From a virus, in IMG/VR virus record IMGVR_UViG_3300046507_000485, positions 1-28,462 of that record: a stretch of 28,462 nt of DNA. The stretch is one strand, 5' to 3'. The notes below the pieces were generated by a model. It had not been told where the DNA came from, ran no database searches, and was given only the letters and a program-made list of their open reading frames with translations. How positions within the stretch are numbered: the stretch's first letter is position 1; each line of letters starts with the position of its first letter. The position numbers and the translations under genes are program-made. Shown in pieces: positions 2,591 to 9,857 of the stretch.

Positions 2591-2911
2591 GTGGACCCCT
2601 ACGACATCGAAGACACCAGCGATTGGCTCGGCACTCCGACCAGGCTGGAAACCGTCAAACATTACGCCCATATGCTTGAGGAGGACATCGAAGAGCTGAG
2701 GCGGCAACTGCATGCGGCGAAGGAAAACATTTCCACCCTTGTCGAAATGAACGACCAGCTGTCAGCCGAACTCCAAAAGAAGCGGGTATGGATGGCGAGC
2801 CTGGAGGCGGAAACCACCGACCAGCTTTCCCAGATCCAAAGTCTGACGCTGGTCCTGGATCAAAAAGAAAGGATCATTCGCGAGTTGCATGCGGGCAATC
2901 AGAGGGGCTGA
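2591..2911 (+). CDS. Coiled-coil protein of an SOS-controlled pair
   Basis: 106 aa, GTG start with an AAGG ribosome binding site 8-10 bp upstream. The first ~20 residues are acidic (DPYDIEDTSDW); residues ~25-100 are a continuous heptad-like coiled coil rich in Leu, Glu, Gln and Lys. No catalytic motif, no membrane segment. The stop is 2 bp from the SRAP start, so the two are one transcript under the LexA box at 2557-2572. Being first in the unit, it may be a dimeric partner or DNA-damage accessory factor for the SRAP protein, but nothing in the sequence proves this. I do not recognise a named family. Confidence 0.8.
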   Translation: MDPYDIEDTSDWLGTPTRLETVKHYAHMLEEDIEELRRQLHAAKENISTLVEMNDQLSAELQKKRVWMASLEAETTDQLSQIQSLTLVLDQKERIIRELHAGNQRG

Positions 2912-2913
2912 AC

Positions 2914-3609
2914 ATGTGCGGACGACTTTCCCAATACGATGGCATCCACGACTTTGTAGCGGCACTCAGCATGCCCAACCCTCTGGTCAACAGCACCGGT
3001 GACCGACCTTTCGAGCGGTACAACGCCGCCCCGACAACCCAGCTCGCCATCTTTCACCAGGAAGGTCAATATCTGCATGCCGACATGGTGCGCTGGGGCT
3101 GGCGCCCGCATTGGGCCAAGGACCGCGCAGCACCGATCAATGCCAGGGTGGAGAAAGTTGCCCACGGCCCTTTCTTCCGCGCCATCTGGCCGCACCGGGC
3201 GATCATCGCCATCAACAACTGGTTTGAATGGGTGGATGAAGGCGGACCGAAAAAGCAGCCGTACCTGATCCGCCGCCGAGACAGGGCGCCGATACTGTGC
3301 GCAGCGATTGGCCAATACCCGAACGTCGAGCATGAACCGAGCGAGCATGACGGCTTCGTCATCATCACCGCCGACAGTGCCGTCGGTATGGTCGACATCC
3401 ACGACCGCCGACCGGTGACGCTATCGCCAGAGCTCGCCCGGGAATGGCTCGACCCGGTCACGCCAAAGGAGCGCGCCGAACAAATGATTATGCACCAGGG
3501 CGAGCCCACCGAGGCGTTCGAGTGGTTCAAGGTGGATCGCGCGATTGGCAACGTGCGCAATCAGGGGCCCGAGTTGATCAAGCCAGCCGATGAAAGCGGC
3601 TTGTTCTAA
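2914..3609 (+). CDS. SRAP (SOS response-associated peptidase / abasic-site processing) protein
   Basis: 231-aa YedK/HMCES-type protein. SRAP proteins cap abasic sites in single-stranded DNA through a thiazolidine link formed by Cys2 after removal of the initiator Met, and have autoproteolytic-like chemistry. All signature residues are visible: MCGR start (Cys2), YNAAPT (Asn37), WGWRPHW, INAR, NNWFEW (Glu105) and IHDRRPV (His163). The start is fixed by Cys2 and by a GAGGGG ribosome binding site; an in-frame upstream extension would bury the cysteine. It follows the coiled-coil gene by 2 bp under a LexA box and overlaps a minus-strand gene by 4 bp at its end. Likely protects replicating phage or host DNA after damage, or during induction. 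Full length and apparently intact. Confidence 0.95.
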   Translation: MCGRLSQYDGIHDFVAALSMPNPLVNSTGDRPFERYNAAPTTQLAIFHQEGQYLHADMVRWGWRPHWAKDRAAPINARVEKVAHGPFFRAIWPHRAIIAINNWFEWVDEGGPKKQPYLIRRRDRAPILCAAIGQYPNVEHEPSEHDGFVIITADSAVGMVDIHDRRPVTLSPELAREWLDPVTPKERAEQMIMHQGEPTEAFEWFKVDRAIGNVRNQGPELIKPADESGLF

Positions 3610-3836
3610 GTTGCAGCCAGCGATCTCAGCCGCTCTTCAGTCGCTGAATCGAAGATGACATAGAGCCGATCAATGGTTGCCTCACTCAAAGCTCGGGCAG
3701 ATTCCAAGCCAAGAACAAAGCCCTCAGCGCGTGCGCCTGCTTTCGCTGCAACAATCATCGAATCCGCTTGGGCGATCTGAGCAAGAAGCTTGTCCGCCTC
3801 GCGCTCGATCTTTGGGCTCAGTTCTACGCCTTCCAT
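3606..3836 (-). CDS. Small unknown phage protein (76 aa)
   Basis: 76-aa mainly helical protein, no membrane helix, no cysteine, unlikely to be a holin. I chose ATG 3836 (MEGVELSPK) because a GGTGG ribosome binding site lies just before it; the longer reading to 3914 adds a basic, low-quality N-terminus. It is convergent with the SRAP gene and their stop codons overlap by 4 bp. Function unknown. Confidence 0.65.
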   Translation of the reverse strand: MEGVELSPKIEREADKLLAQIAQADSMIVAAKAGARAEGFVLGLESARALSEATIDRLYVIFDSATEERLRSLAAT

Positions 3837-3937
3837 TCCACCACCTTTATTTAAACGATCGGCTACATGTGGCGGCATGCGTGCCGGCCGACAGCACCGC
3901 TGAAGCCTTCGCACGCGCGTCTCCTATCACATAGGCC

Positions 3938-3982
3938 TTCTTAAAAATTGTTACCGTTTCGTATAATCTATATGACAGAAAC
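3938..3982 (+). promoter_or_regulatory. Candidate promoter/operator for the 85-aa gene
   Basis: A perfect TATAAT at 3962-3967 with a poor -35 (TTCTTA, 3938-3943, 18-bp spacing). The -10 lies between inverted pentamers GTTTC (3956-3960) and GAAAC (3978-3982), which could be an operator. The local sequence is AT-rich compared with its surroundings. Confidence 0.45.
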
Positions 3983-4005
3983 TTTTCAGACCGGTAAGGA
4001 CGTCC

Positions 4006-4263
4006 ATGACAAAAGTAAAATATTCCGCCAACCTGATACCTCATCCATCAGCCGAAGGTTGGGTGCAAGGCTGGGCCGTCCTTTGTAGCACCCGTACTGA
4101 GTGGAATTTGGTGGCGGTGCACGCAGACCAAGTCCAAGCGGAACAGGAAGCCGCTCAACTCGGAGAGCCATATAAAGCAACCTGGGGCTCCTTCCGGCCG
4201 GAGACCGATGATTTCATCCATGGTCACGGCGTCGAAAGCTTCGCGCTTCCCTTGGTAGTCTGA
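4006..4263 (+). CDS. Small unknown phage protein (85 aa)
   Basis: 85 aa, soluble, mixed alpha/beta, with a WVQGWAVLCSTRTEWNLVAV core and a conserved-looking WGSFRPETDDFI end. ATG start after a TAAGGA ribosome binding site. It has its own TATAAT element upstream and lies between the SOS pair and the convergent endolysin gene. I recall similar short proteins (a GWAVL.. core and a DDF-type end) as hypothetical proteins in Pseudomonas phages; no function is assigned. Confidence 0.7.
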   Translation: MTKVKYSANLIPHPSAEGWVQGWAVLCSTRTEWNLVAVHADQVQAEQEAAQLGEPYKATWGSFRPETDDFIHGHGVESFALPLVV

Positions 4264-4302
4264 CCGACCAGTAGGCGCCCAGCCCGACTTCGCTCAACCA
4301 TC

Positions 4303-4929
4303 TCACGGCAGCACCCGCAGAGCTAGGTCGTACAATGCCAAGCGCTCAGAGGCTCCGTTGGGCGACCGGCCTGGCTGTCCGGTGTTGATGACGCTGCCGA
4401 TATCGCGAATTCGGCCGGCGTCAGCCATCTCGTTTAAGCCACGCTTCGCCCACCACCAGGATGCGGACTGAGCTGCGTGCTCTGGCTGCTCTAGCAACTC
4501 AGGCTGTTTCTCCAATGGGAGACCCAGCTCTACACCGGCCTCGCGGTAGTTGGCTCGTCCGGTTACCTGTAGCAGACCGCGCCCCCGGAATCGCCAACCA
4601 TCTCCTGTCACCTCCTCGCCGTTTCCCATTCTTCCGCCATAAACAGCGTTGGCAATCCTCTCAGGCTGGCGGGCATAGGCTCCCGCCGAAAAATCATTGA
4701 ATCGGTTTGGCCAGGTTCTAACGAGTGCGCTGGCACTGTAGTTCAGGTTCTCCACCAGATTGCGCAGCTGCCCAGACTCATGTCCGACCTGAGCTAGAAA
4801 TGCCGCCTGCCGCATTCGGCTGTCAATCTTCCATCGGATCATGGCCCGGTTCAGGGCTGGCAAAAAAATGCCCGCAACAGGGCGGGCTTTGGGAAGGATC
4901 TTTAGCAGTTGCTGCTCGGTAATCGGCAT
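4303..4929 (-). CDS. Endolysin, glycoside hydrolase family 19 (chitinase-like lysozyme)
   Basis: 208-aa peptidoglycan-degrading enzyme for host lysis. Hallmarks: FLAQVGHESG with the catalytic Glu51, a second acidic residue Glu60 in VENLNYSA, and WRFRGRGLLQVTGRANY (112-128), the GH19 endolysin signature. Length is normal for single-domain GH19 endolysins. No signal peptide or SAR helix at the N-terminus, so it should need a holin to reach the cell wall; none is visible beside it. A GGA ribosome binding site lies 8 bp before the ATG and directly follows a terminator hairpin. It is the last minus-strand late gene before the accessory block and is cut off from the tail operon by the plus-strand LicD-TagD insert. 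Confidence 0.95.
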   Translation of the reverse strand: MPITEQQLLKILPKARPVAGIFLPALNRAMIRWKIDSRMRQAAFLAQVGHESGQLRNLVENLNYSASALVRTWPNRFNDFSAGAYARQPERIANAVYGGRMGNGEEVTGDGWRFRGRGLLQVTGRANYREAGVELGLPLEKQPELLEQPEHAAQSASWWWAKRGLNEMADAGRIRDIGSVINTGQPGRSPNGASERLALYDLALRVLP

Positions 4930-4943
4930 AGGTTTTATCCAGG

Positions 4944-4969
4944 CAAAAAGAAGCCCGCTCGATGCGGGC
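4944..4969 (-). terminator. Intrinsic terminator just before the endolysin
   Basis: 6-bp GC stem (4953-4958/4964-4969), 5-nt loop, T-rich tail on the minus strand, followed at once by the endolysin ribosome binding site. One of a series with the same layout in this genome. Confidence 0.75.
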
Positions 4970-5249
4970 CTGATTGATTGTGAGCGGATAAGCAGTAGCG
5001 CGTTAGTTGCATCCCGAGGGGACGCCGAACGCCTTCTTGACCAAAGGTTTGGACGGGGCTCCCCTGCTTATATTACGATGTGATGACATTCGGATTGAGT
5101 TTCCGTGAACCCTGATGGAGCAGGATCGATCTATAGCGATGCTTAGAGGTCAGGTGATGCCGAGCCGGGACACCGAAGCGCCGAGATGATGGGCGAGCGC
5201 CAGTCTCTCCCCCTGCGTAAAATCCTAGAAGAGCTAAGGACCTAGCCTT
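4970..5249. other. Leader region upstream of the LicD-like gene
   Basis: 280 bp with no credible gene on either strand; in particular no holin. A TATATT at 5069-5074 may be the -10 of the plus-strand promoter, but its -35 is poor; a TTGACC at 5037-5042 is too far from it. ATTGTGAGCGGATAA at 4977-4991 equals part of the lac operator, probably by chance. The ribosome binding site AAGGA for the next gene is at 5236-5240. Confidence 0.4.
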
Positions 5250-6644
5250 TTGAATATCACCACCAATTTCAAAGAACTATTCCCCGGCGCCATATTCTTT
5301 GGCTCAAACACAGAAATGTGCCTTGAGTTGGATATAGGAAGATCAATCCGAGGCTTACGATTTTCCATATGCTCAGTCGCGCCAGAATTTCTTAACTTTA
5401 CAAAATTTCATATTTTTTCTGACGATGGCAAACCTGTAGCACTGAACAAGCAAAACTGCTCGGTTAAAATGAGCAGCGTGTTCAATGACAACCACACTCG
5501 ATTCGGCGCGGACTACATACAAGGTAACGACAGTGGTGAAGTACACACTGGAAAAGAGATTTCGCCGTATGTACAGGTCACTTTAAACACTGCCGCGTCC
5601 GTTTCGAAACTTAAAGTTCTGAACAGACCGGATCGGTGGTCAAAGCGCAACAAGAATCTGAGAATCGAAATCCTAGTTGATGATGCGTGGGAATTTTTGT
5701 GGCAGAACGCCAATAACGACACGTATTTTAACATCCAAAAATCAGCTAACAAATGGATTCCAAACTCAACGTTCGCATCATTAAATAATGGCAACCTCAA
5801 CACAACACGCACACAGATAAAAAAGACGATAATAAGCATCCTCAGAAGCGAGCTTATATACAAATTTCTCGAAGAGGATTCGTCTCTTTTTTCGATTCTT
5901 GATTTTTACGGCGACATCCCTGCTGATGAATACGACGTTGAAATTTTGGGTGCATACATCGCGGCGGCTTTGCGCAAAGATCGTGTAGTGTCAAATTTCT
6001 CATTTATTCAAAGTCTTATTTCAACCAAAGAATTAACTTCAAGACTGATTGACCAGATAAACATCTACACATCTAAACTTTTCAACGAGTCGTCATTCAT
6101 AATCACCAGGCACGGAATTCGCCAGAGCAACCTTCTGCAGAAAAAAACTGCGCTTCTTGATCATACTGCCGACGTCATGAATTTCGTTCAATCCTTAGGA
6201 TACCCCTGCACTCTGTTGTATGGAACGCTGCTAGGCGCGGTCAGAGACAAGGGTTTTATCCCGCATGACGATGACTTAGATGTATGTTTCTTTAGTAATC
6301 ACACCGATCTGAAATCGGCCAGTGACGATATGTATGAAAAATTGAAAGGTCGCGGCTATACAGTGGTGCGTAATCTTGGATGCAACCTTCATGTCATAGT
6401 GAACAGAGACGTATGCGTTGATCTGTTCCCTGGGGTAATTTCTGGTGAAGAAATATCGTTGCACATGGAGAAAATGCAGATCCGGACAATCCGCCTTGAC
6501 ACCATTCTACCTACAAAAACTATAAATTTTTATGATCGCACGCTAAGCATACCAAACAATCCAGAGGCTTTCCTAACTGAAAGATATGGTTCCGACTGGA
6601 CAGAATCCAATCCCTTCTTTGAATGGCCGTATGCACTATCATGA
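5250..6644 (+). CDS. LicD-family phosphotransferase with N-terminal galactose-binding-like domain
   Basis: 464-aa protein. Residues ~300-464 are a LicD/fukutin-type domain with the signature LYGTLLGAVRDKGFIPHDDD (323-342), whose DDDLD carboxylates bind metal; LicD enzymes transfer phosphocholine or related phospho-alcohols from CDP donors to glycans. Residues ~20-160 look like a discoidin (F5/8 type C)-like beta-sandwich (IDLG-like start, SKLKVLNRPDRW, NLRIEILVD), a domain known to accompany glycan-modifying enzymes; ~185-290 is helical linker. Start is TTG with AAGGA 9 bp upstream; no ATG fits. GC is much lower than the neighbours, suggesting transfer. It overlaps the cytidylyltransferase gene (ATGA), so donor synthesis and transfer are coupled. 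Likely role: decorating host surface glycan, altering serotype or phage adsorption. The transferred group (glycerol phosphate, choline or other) is inference. Confidence 0.85.
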   Translation: MNITTNFKELFPGAIFFGSNTEMCLELDIGRSIRGLRFSICSVAPEFLNFTKFHIFSDDGKPVALNKQNCSVKMSSVFNDNHTRFGADYIQGNDSGEVHTGKEISPYVQVTLNTAASVSKLKVLNRPDRWSKRNKNLRIEILVDDAWEFLWQNANNDTYFNIQKSANKWIPNSTFASLNNGNLNTTRTQIKKTIISILRSELIYKFLEEDSSLFSILDFYGDIPADEYDVEILGAYIAAALRKDRVVSNFSFIQSLISTKELTSRLIDQINIYTSKLFNESSFIITRHGIRQSNLLQKKTALLDHTADVMNFVQSLGYPCTLLYGTLLGAVRDKGFIPHDDDLDVCFFSNHTDLKSASDDMYEKLKGRGYTVVRNLGCNLHVIVNRDVCVDLFPGVISGEEISLHMEKMQIRTIRLDTILPTKTINFYDRTLSIPNNPEAFLTERYGSDWTESNPFFEWPYALS

Positions 6645-7114
6645 AAAAGCAGAAGACTTTAATCACTTACGGCACGTTCGACCTTCTTCATATTGGGCAC
6701 TTGAACCTATTGGAGAGCCTTTCGAAACTCTGCGACCGGCTTGTGGTAGGGGTGTCCACCGACGAATTCAATGCCCTTAAAGGAAAGAAATGCGTGGTGC
6801 CGTATGAAGACCGCGCTAGGCTTGTTCAGTCTTTGAGAGTTGTTGATCTGGTAATACCTGAGACGGACTGGGCGCAAAAAAGATCAGATATAATTTCCCA
6901 AGAAGCTGATATTTTTGCTATCGGTAATGATTGGGCTGGTAAGTTTGACGACCTGCAAGATATTTGCCAGGTACTCTATCTCCCTCGAACCGAGGGAATC
7001 TCAACAACCGAGATTAAAGACATCATATCAAAATCCAAAGATGACCAACTTATGGTTATCAAAAATACGCTTGAGCATGCGCTATCAATGATTGGATTAG
7101 TCGGCGCAAAATAG
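6641..7114 (+). CDS. Glycerol-3-phosphate cytidylyltransferase-like protein (TagD family)
   Basis: 157-aa nucleotidyltransferase of the cytidylyltransferase superfamily. It has TYGTFDLLHIGHLNLLE with the HIGH motif at 17-20 and RTEGISTT at 116-123, both diagnostic of TagD/TarD-type enzymes that make CDP-glycerol from CTP and glycerol 3-phosphate (or related CDP-alcohols). Length is somewhat above the ~130-aa TagD norm, with a helical C-terminal extension from ~127. I chose the ATG in the ATGA overlap with the LicD stop; an upstream ATG at 6623 lies inside LicD and would add six residues before the usual MKK start. Low GC like its partner, and followed by a strong bidirectional terminator. It supplies the activated donor for the LicD-like enzyme; substrate identity is not provable from sequence. 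Confidence 0.9.
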   Translation: MKKQKTLITYGTFDLLHIGHLNLLESLSKLCDRLVVGVSTDEFNALKGKKCVVPYEDRARLVQSLRVVDLVIPETDWAQKRSDIISQEADIFAIGNDWAGKFDDLQDICQVLYLPRTEGISTTEIKDIISKSKDDQLMVIKNTLEHALSMIGLVGAK

Positions 7115-7128
7115 GCTAAATCAAGCAC

Positions 7129-7161
7129 AAAAAGGGAGGCATTTAGATGCCTCCCTTTTTT
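7129..7161. terminator. Bidirectional intrinsic terminator
   Basis: 9-bp stem (7134-7142/7147-7155) with a TTAG loop, preceded by A5 and followed by T6, so it works on both strands. It ends the LicD-TagD transcript and the convergent tail-spike transcript; the spike stop codon (7160-7162) overlaps the T run. Confidence 0.9.
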
Positions 7162-9814
7162 ATGCCACCCTGATTTTAAGGACGCTGGCGGTTCTGTAGT
7201 GTCCGCCGATTGGAACACCACCCGTTGCAGCAGCGGCGTCATCTGCAAAGTTAGGAACATTCGCCACAGGGGTAATGATGTAGCCCGCCGACCCCTTTGG
7301 GGCTAGCAACAGGCTGACGCTACTGTCGGCTCCGAATGCCTCAAATCGCACCGCTGTGCCCGTAGCCGAAGCGCGCACAATCAACCCGTTAACAGCACCT
7401 GTAGCCGCTATGAGTTGAAGTGCGTTCAACAGCACCTCGTTGCCAAGCTCCGCGTTACCCGCCCCCTTGGCGCGACCTTTAAATGCCACGTCGGCCAGCG
7501 CGCCGTCCGTGCGATACGGAGCGTCATACACTCGCGGACCAGAGCCACCAAACAGCAACTGACCAGACGTGGTGTTCATCTGGACGTAGACCCCGGACGC
7601 AGGGCGAACAGAGCCGGCGCCAGAAGTCACCAGGAAGCCGTTAAAGGCGGCGATGGCGTTGATATTCAGCTCGGTCGCATTCGCCGATTGAATACGTCCG
7701 GTCATGGTCAGGGTTGGAGCATCGAACACCGGCACCCCAGGGGTGAGCTGCTGGCCAATAACCATGTCGACGTTGGTTAGCGTCACCGACCCAACAGAAG
7801 CGTCTTGCTTGATAGATGACAGCGCCGTGTGTGGCACGCCAACTTTAAAGGTGAAGCCTTCCAACGCACTGGCCGTACCGTCACCGACAAACTTGATCTG
7901 GTGTTTGCAGCCTGTGTTGCCAACGACTGGCGTGTCTTTGAACGTGGTTTCCATCAACCCTTCAATGGACAGGTTCTGGTGCACGCTGGTGGACGTCGTC
8001 CAAATCTCGAAAATGGCATCGTTGTAGCTGATGAAATAACAGCCACGGTCCCAGCCCCAGCCCCGGGTGAACTCCAGCCAAACGGGCGCACCGCCGCCGA
8101 TATGGCGCAGGTCGCAAGAATAGAACTGGTTGTTGGTGAACGACACCGCCACGCCAAACGCTCGCAACGCGGCGTAGTCGCTGGTCGCACCATTCCGCAT
8201 GCGGCCATCGCCGATGTAAACCTTCGACGTCGGGTCCTGGTTGTAGTTGGCCCCCCGCGTGCGCACGTAGGTGGTGGTTTCGCTGCCGATGTTCCAGAAG
8301 CATGTTTTGAGGAAGTGCCCGGTGACGTTGACCCCAAAGAAGGCGTTATTTCCGCTGGTTTCAGTGCCCTGCGGGCCAAGCAGTATGCCGCACTTCGGCG
8401 GATTGGCCTCGTCACCAAAAATGGTCAGCCCGTGGATTTGCAGCCAGCGCGTGCCGGTCATGTCCACGACGTTCTTGGTCGCCCCGCGCCCGTGGAACAC
8501 CGCACCTGACGCCTCAAGGATAGTGTTGCGCGCCTTGATGTTGGTCAGGTTGACGCTGCCGTCGATACGGTACAAGCCAGCCGGAATGTCACCGACGACT
8601 TTGACGTAGTCTTCTGAGGACACATCCACGAACGTGGACTTGATGTACTGCCAGAAGGCACTGAGCGCACTGGTCTGATCCACCAAACCGGTACCGGCTT
8701 TCAGGTCGGCGCGCTGGGCTGCGGTCATGAAGTCGTAAAGGGTTTTCTGCGGGCGCCACTGAGCCGCCCACTGGGTTTTCCAGCACCGACCATCAGCACC
8801 AACAATCACCGAGTCGTCATCGTCCGTGCTGGTGCTGTCGAGTGGGTCGAACAGGTAAGTAGCGATTACACCGCCGGTGCTGATCGATACGCTGTCAGCG
8901 CTGCCTGTATAGGCGCGAAGGACGGCCTTCGACGCAAGCTTTCGCACCGATTGCGCCGCTACGGTAGAGTCGTCCCAGCCAACCTCCGCTGCACCCTTGG
9001 CAGGGTCGGAGGCGTTGGCCAGGTCCGCTATGTTGGCTTTGGCATCGAGAGCGGGCTGTATCCCTGCAACCGATGCGGCTGCCGCTTCAGCGCTCGACTC
9101 GGCCGCCTCTGCCGAATCAGCTGCATCCAGCCTGTCCTGGTTGGTTTGCAGAGCGGCCGCCTGGCTGCCTTGAAGGTAACCCAAGCCAGTGATGGCGAAA
9201 CCTTCCGAGGCGTCACGCGCCGCAACAGCCTCGTCCCTTACCTCTGAAATGTCCTCCAGGCTGTCGCTGATCGACCAGCCGGACGACCTGTAGATGTATT
9301 CGGCCTGGTTGACCGTGTTTACATAGCGGTCACCGAACTGCAAGGGCGAGCCATCGTCGCGCACAAGCGGAGAGGTAGCGGCCGGCGCCAGGAATCGAGC
9401 GGTTCGAGCCGCGGCCTGCTGCGCGTTCTCGGCTGAAATCTGCTCAGAAAGCCCGGCCTCGACCTGGCTTTGAGCGGCCGCAGTCGCGCTGGCAGTCGCC
9501 GAGTCCTTACTGGCTTGGGCGGACACCGCAGAGAGTGCCGCGGCATCCTTGGCGTCTACCGCCACTGCGGAGGCTGAAAGGGTCTCGTCGTGCGCCTGCT
9601 CTACCTCGGCCGCGCTGGCCAAAACCTGAGCGGTCTGCGTGCTGACGGTGGCCGCCTGGGTCGCGACCTGACTGGCGTTATCGTCAACCTGGGCCGCCAA
9701 GGTGGCGACCTCAGCCCGATCGGCAGCCGTTGCGTCCCTGGCGCTTTGAATCTGCCCGAGCATTTCTACGGCGGCGTCAATCTGCGGGCCGGTATGGGCA
9801 CTGTTATAAGCCAT
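7160..9814 (-). CDS. Tail spike / tail fibre protein
   Basis: 884-aa receptor-binding protein. Residues 1-~130 are an Ala/Gln/Ser-rich trimeric coiled coil (repeated AATVSTQTAQV-like heptads), followed by a short globular segment and a second coiled coil (~215-260). The middle (~355-720) has the look of a right-handed beta-helix (repeating short strands such as NLTNIKARNTILEASGAVF and WLQIHGLTIFGD), as in polysaccharide-degrading spikes. The C-terminus (ADDAAAATGGVPIGGHYRTAS..KIRVA) is a motif I recognise from tail-fibre ends. ATG 9814 is chosen for its GGAGA ribosome binding site; a longer start at 9835 lies in the terminator tail. Whether it degrades a glycan is not shown. It lies next to the LicD-TagD glycan-modification module, which fits receptor modification against superinfection. 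Confidence 0.85.
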   Translation of the reverse strand: MAYNSAHTGPQIDAAVEMLGQIQSARDATAADRAEVATLAAQVDDNASQVATQAATVSTQTAQVLASAAEVEQAHDETLSASAVAVDAKDAAALSAVSAQASKDSATASATAAAQSQVEAGLSEQISAENAQQAAARTARFLAPAATSPLVRDDGSPLQFGDRYVNTVNQAEYIYRSSGWSISDSLEDISEVRDEAVAARDASEGFAITGLGYLQGSQAAALQTNQDRLDAADSAEAAESSAEAAAASVAGIQPALDAKANIADLANASDPAKGAAEVGWDDSTVAAQSVRKLASKAVLRAYTGSADSVSISTGGVIATYLFDPLDSTSTDDDDSVIVGADGRCWKTQWAAQWRPQKTLYDFMTAAQRADLKAGTGLVDQTSALSAFWQYIKSTFVDVSSEDYVKVVGDIPAGLYRIDGSVNLTNIKARNTILEASGAVFHGRGATKNVVDMTGTRWLQIHGLTIFGDEANPPKCGILLGPQGTETSGNNAFFGVNVTGHFLKTCFWNIGSETTTYVRTRGANYNQDPTSKVYIGDGRMRNGATSDYAALRAFGVAVSFTNNQFYSCDLRHIGGGAPVWLEFTRGWGWDRGCYFISYNDAIFEIWTTSTSVHQNLSIEGLMETTFKDTPVVGNTGCKHQIKFVGDGTASALEGFTFKVGVPHTALSSIKQDASVGSVTLTNVDMVIGQQLTPGVPVFDAPTLTMTGRIQSANATELNINAIAAFNGFLVTSGAGSVRPASGVYVQMNTTSGQLLFGGSGPRVYDAPYRTDGALADVAFKGRAKGAGNAELGNEVLLNALQLIAATGAVNGLIVRASATGTAVRFEAFGADSSVSLLLAPKGSAGYIITPVANVPNFADDAAAATGGVPIGGHYRTASVLKIRVA

Positions 9815-9833
9815 GTGTCTTTTCTCCAGGCAC

Positions 9834-9857
9834 AAAAAAGCCGCCCTTATGGGTGGC
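9834..9857 (-). terminator. Intrinsic terminator before the tail spike gene
   Basis: 7-bp stem 9840-9846/9851-9857 (one G-U pair), TTAT loop, six-T tail on the minus strand, 15-20 bp upstream of the spike ribosome binding site. Confidence 0.8.

Follow-up and report, generated by a model that had tools for sequence, protein, structure and literature searches.

What could a low-GC pair of genes, placed between the lysis and tail-spike genes, contribute to a Pseudomonas phage? The window, by which we mean the whole stretch of DNA analyzed, is a 28,462-base virus fragment and not a whole genome. Portal, terminase, head, tail, and tape-measure genes lie on its minus strand, and its structural genes show matches of about 83% to those of the Pseudomonas phages phiAH14a and PseuP_222, so that a Pseudomonas host is likely. 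An integrase match starts at the left edge of the record, and the phage is presumably capable of lysogeny. A preliminary description had drawn the locus as a two-gene unit joined by an ATGA overlap and set between lysis and spike genes, and this layout is borne out (Table 1). The cassette (window 5250–7114; GC 0.426, against 0.59 for the remaining window) runs in the direction opposite to that of the late genes. Both proteins are conserved beyond chance, with pN of 0.03–0.28 against pS of 0.47–0.98. Also opposite in strand to the late genes is an SRAP (SOS response-associated peptidase) gene at window 2788–3609 (+; Pfam 1.5e-45). Searches of Rfam and of an anti-phage-defence library returned no match.

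Table 1. Features of the cassette and its flanks (window coordinates; L003, Pseudomonas ovata; L044 and L045, phage contigs; GCT, glycerol-3-phosphate cytidylyltransferase).
Feature	Position	Strand	Remarks
Endolysin flank	4303–4929	-	phrog_181
Conserved promoter-like block with imperfect palindrome	5036–5080	+	ACCAAAGGTTTGGACG ... TATATTACGATG; kept in window, L044, L045, L003
Conserved ribosome-binding region	5226–5249	+	AGAAGAGCTAAGGACCTAGCCTT; directly before conserved TTG start
ORF1	5250–6644	+	TTG start, 464 aa, lectin-like + LicD transferase
Galactose-binding-like / F-type-lectin-like domain	5286–5705	+	aa 13–152; H99-x26-R126-x-D128-x4-R133
LicD/FKRP-type nucleotidyltransferase-fold domain	6108–6635	+	aa 287–462; D340, D342, D344, D391
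ORF2	6641–7114	+	ATG start, 157 aa, GCT/TagD-like cytidylyltransferase
Bidirectional terminator-like hairpin	7129–7160	.	strong, z -6.8; shared with convergent spike gene
Tail fibre/spike flank	7160–9835	-	aa 365–891 common with cassette-bearing contig L045 (75%)

ORF1 contains the LicD motif GTLLGAVRDKGFIPHDDDLD recognized at the outset and passes the Pfam LicD gathering cut-off (PF04991; 54.6 against 22.6 bits). In its predicted structure (pLDDT 80 overall), the LicD region matches FKRP with Z 16.5 and an rmsd of 3.2 Å over 165 residues, aligning D340/D342/D344/D391 with FKRP D360/D362/D364/D416, which are essential by mutagenesis (PMC6965139); the four catalytic aspartates are unchanged across eight aligned sequences. 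FKTN and FKRP share this catalytic fold and these residues with ORF1 and can accept CDP-glycerol (CDP-Gro; PMC8587909), but they are animal Golgi enzymes that prefer ribitol phosphate and have no lectin domain. A simple hydropathy scan detected no transmembrane segments in ORF1.

The galactose-binding-like domain of the preliminary description falls under its Pfam cut-off (22.8 against 27.8 bits), yet the ORF1 family profile matches solved F-type lectins (best E 1.3e-6), and the modeled N-terminal region is a galactose-binding-like beta-sandwich. The structural search suggested for this region led to F-type lectins at Z 5.7–6.5, with a galactanase accessory domain as the best match at Z 10.6. 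The F-type lectin motif H-x-RxDx4(R/K) is present, unchanged in eight sequences, and aligned with FBP32 and 1K12; its spacing agrees with that of H52, R79, and R86 in the eel lectin. With F-type lectins (FBP32, eel lectin, SpX fucose-binding modules) the domain has in common a weak profile match and the H-x26-RxDx4R motif; unlike them, it is apparently soluble and intracellular and joined to a transferase, and its sugar binding is putative. The open-access literature yielded no paper treating an F-type lectin together with LicD.

We propose that the locus probably serves lysogenic conversion, producing CDP-glycerol and decorating surface glycan units of the host with glycerol phosphate. ORF2 would convert CTP and host glycerol-3-phosphate into CDP-glycerol. 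ORF1, soluble and cytosolic, would act on lipid-linked surface-polysaccharide units: its lectin-like domain would recognize one of their sugars, perhaps a 6-deoxy sugar, and its LicD domain would move glycerol phosphate onto it by metal-dependent catalysis involving the four aspartates. Export of the decorated unit would alter the host O-antigen or another surface polysaccharide, probably hindering phage adsorption. The computational analysis shows the domains, the catalytic residues, the coupling of the genes, their recurrence in phages, and the slot that they occupy. We regard the case for the enzyme-level reading, and for CDP-glycerol as the donor, as strong, while the biological role, argued partly by analogy, is plausible. 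Because ORF1 shows no transmembrane segment in the hydropathy scan and CDP-glycerol would be made in the cytosol, a cytosolic, probably lipid-linked acceptor is the simplest inference. We place moderate confidence in this site of action and in a host surface polysaccharide, O-antigen or other, as the target; the sugar that we name is a weak suggestion.

How general is the pairing of the two genes? Close relatives of ORF1 occur in P. ovata (71%) and in the two phage contigs (64%), and distant ones in Alteromonas (L004 and L005, 28–29%, each with an upstream paralogue) and in G1012, G1021, and G1046. The pair is retained in P. ovata, both phage contigs, and both Alteromonas loci. Each of the nine full-length lectin-LicD loci that were examined (the window and these eight relatives, not a random sample) has a GCT gene on the stretch retrieved, adjoining in most and in varied orientation, whereas GCT occurs in only 17 of 399 Pseudomonas genomes; non-random as the loci are, this is strong evidence of functional coupling. 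The fusion is rare in Pseudomonas, with a full-length match in one of 399 genomes, which was the centre of the search. No ORF1 relatives emerged from 50,697 phage records searched directly at the protein level or from a single-sequence scan of IMG/VR, while a profile search of IMG/VR recovered L044 and L045; E. coli genomes gave no DNA match, and a plasmid search only weak LicD-region matches. Records named Listeria phage (L145), with LicD and GCT beside a polymerase-like ORF, were excluded as phage evidence because their assembly is unverified and they probably consist of capsule DNA from a bacterium.

In bacteria, the distant lectin-LicD genes are located in polysaccharide clusters, and Pfam neighbors include pyruvyl transferase, GSCFA, hexapeptide transferase, GT2, and RgpF. 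The P. ovata pair adjoins a phage-type SGNH tail-like gene (phrog_14987) and a cluster of rml, glycosyltransferase, and pyruvyl-transferase genes, the names rmlBDAC being assigned by eye from the ORFs. Adjoining the Alteromonas genes is a large predicted secreted protein (L004 3372–5069, L005 3355–5055), for which, in L004, no Pfam or NCBIfam match was found.

In the capsule of Actinobacillus pleuropneumoniae, a GCT (Cps7B) provides CDP-Gro from which a LicD enzyme (Cps7C) transfers Gro3P (PMC11666461), the division of labor proposed here; unlike the phage pair, these enzymes serve a bacterial capsule linker, with a TPR instead of a lectin domain and with the partners CpsA and CpsD. Could ORF1 likewise build up poly(glycerol phosphate), as a short chain or as a linker, and not a single substituent? 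Cps7C, a LicD-family protein with a predicted N-terminal TPR, adds Gro3P residues (PMC11666461), and lectin-less LicD proteins are also paired with GCT, as TPR-LicD adjoining it in two Pseudomonas genomes (G053, G290) and further in G672 and G885; moreover, ORFs of L154 resemble an ABC exporter, as judged by eye. The phage unit, however, comes without a CpsA- or CpsD-like partner and has a lectin domain in place of the TPR, and we consider such chain synthesis unlikely.

Which alcohol would be transferred? ORF2 had been described as TagD-like, and its best solved match is indeed B. subtilis TagD (1COZ, a GCT; E 1.2e-44). It meets the cytidylyltransferase-like family PF01467 (81.3 against 21 bits), with HxGH and RTxxISTT signatures and invariant residues, and is named GCT-like because it lies 12 bits short of the NCBIfam GCT equivalog TIGR01518 (153 against 165.4 bits). 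That shortfall, together with the broad use of CDP conjugates by LicD enzymes (PMC11666461), would suit transfer of ethanolamine, choline, or another polyol, but GCT/TagD is by far the best solved match (ethanolamine-phosphate cytidylyltransferase, E 1.1e-17), and we judge another CDP-alcohol to be rather unlikely. The donor-plus-transferase pairing first suggested thus stands, with an F-type-like lectin half, an FKRP-like transferase half, and ORF2 closest to GCT/TagD.

GCT-like proteins with N-terminal extensions are also encoded on two large viral contigs (L142, 424 kb, 2643–4396; L143, 107 kb, 3752–4396), adjoining a TagF-like CDP-glycerol glycerophosphotransferase (PF04464, 4.4e-33) and a Stealth-type gene, respectively; this is a further way in which phages use CDP-glycerol, unrelated to the first.

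The cassette had been credited with a leader and a terminator of its own. The promoter-like block lies about 180–210 nt 5' of the ORF1 start in the window, both phage contigs, and P. ovata, in which the pair has the same block, ribosome-binding region, and TTG start; in the alignment, each of the four close relatives starts with TTG. Preceded by CAAAG, the block was found only in cassette-bearing contigs within the scans made. A looser pattern hit 41 IMG/VR stretches, with CAAAG before it only in the two cassette contigs, and the others, chance-like, were set aside. The block does not match the sigma-70 consensus, and its spacer of 13–14 nt is short for sigma-70; its role as a promoter is putative. 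An imperfect palindrome (CCAAAGGTTTGG, window 5041–5056) overlaps the block, is kept in relatives, and is possibly a regulator site. The leader is upheld as a conserved block and not as a sigma-70 match, and the terminator as a strong hairpin that the cassette shares with the spike gene.

What is the relevance of the position between endolysin and spike? In L044 and L045 the pair again lies between lysis genes and opposite-strand tail genes, the slot being common although the endolysins of the three phages belong to different PHROGs (181, 873, and 90). The L045 spike resembles that of the window across 527 aa, and the L044 tail protein is of SGNH/lipase type. L009, with a related endolysin and integrase region, has a predicted O-acetylase in the slot in matching orientation (phrog_3333, 1.5e-59; phrog_6705, O-antigen acetylase). 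Elsewhere the slot holds a low-GC gene of 326 aa with a weak glycosyltransferase hint (L007), a low-GC gene of 675 aa with about 10 transmembrane segments and no Pfam or PHROG match (L015, 5825–7852, minus strand), and another low-GC gene (L026). Since L137, with a closely related spike (86% similar over 461 aa), carries a different slot gene (4129–5295, 388 aa, no Pfam match) in place of the cassette on the stretch seen, the pair and the window spike are not strictly linked. Slot ORFs opposite endolysin-linked tail genes in L035, L039, and L031 are antisense-like by composition and were not counted, and L043 5586–7091 is a ParB-type gene, not glycan-related.

As in serotype-conversion modules, the cassette stands apart as a low-GC unit placed in an accessory slot, and the conversion module first envisaged gains support from the O-acetylase of L009, the bacterial surface-polysaccharide neighbors, and the published biochemistry of LicD with CDP-glycerol; the O-antigen as target and a block of the spike's receptor are kept as proposals. 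The pair might instead alter surface glycans for host fitness with phage adsorption unaffected, as its occurrence in bacterial polysaccharide loci would allow, but the slot is common with a predicted O-antigen acetylase and the pair adjoins tail spikes in the window and L045; we doubt this reading about as much as transfer of another alcohol. That the pair modifies a glycan on the virion or a tail protein, as its nearness to tail genes might suggest, is highly improbable, since the pair has a conserved leader of its own on the other strand and since bacterial homologues occur with no phage genes around them.

Membrane enzymes take part in conversion by acetylase and Gtr modules, and it is in its proposed cytosolic action that the glycerol phosphate cassette is set apart. 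The effect on adsorption is proposed by analogy with phage D3, whose O-acetylase changes LPS and blocks phage binding (PMC11436027), albeit by acetyl chemistry and a different enzyme family; with this precedent, receptor blocking may be advanced with moderate confidence. The lpt-O gene of Shigella flexneri likewise places an O-antigen phospho-modification on a mobile element (PMC3458804), but there a plasmid directs phosphoethanolamine conversion and no CDP-donor gene is named.

The recurrence of the pair in phages and in bacterial surface-polysaccharide clusters suggests that phages may re-label their hosts with teichoic-acid-like chemistry, and our literature search found no earlier phage case of glycerol-phosphate conversion. 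We put forward, tentatively, the more general possibility that phages of Gram-negative bacteria bring about conversion by transferring glycerol phosphate in the cytosol, guided by a lectin, to surface-polysaccharide units still being made, with CDP-glycerol that they supply themselves and with a chemistry and site unlike known phage acetylation and glucosylation. If this is true, prophages would equip the surface glycans of Gram-negative bacteria with a charged group resembling teichoic acid by means of a self-contained two-gene cassette, and a single testable unit would bring fukutin-type enzymes and lectins together with phage receptor exclusion. The known chemistries of phage conversion would be widened, and some of the glycerol phosphate in Gram-negative surface polysaccharides would perhaps be explained.
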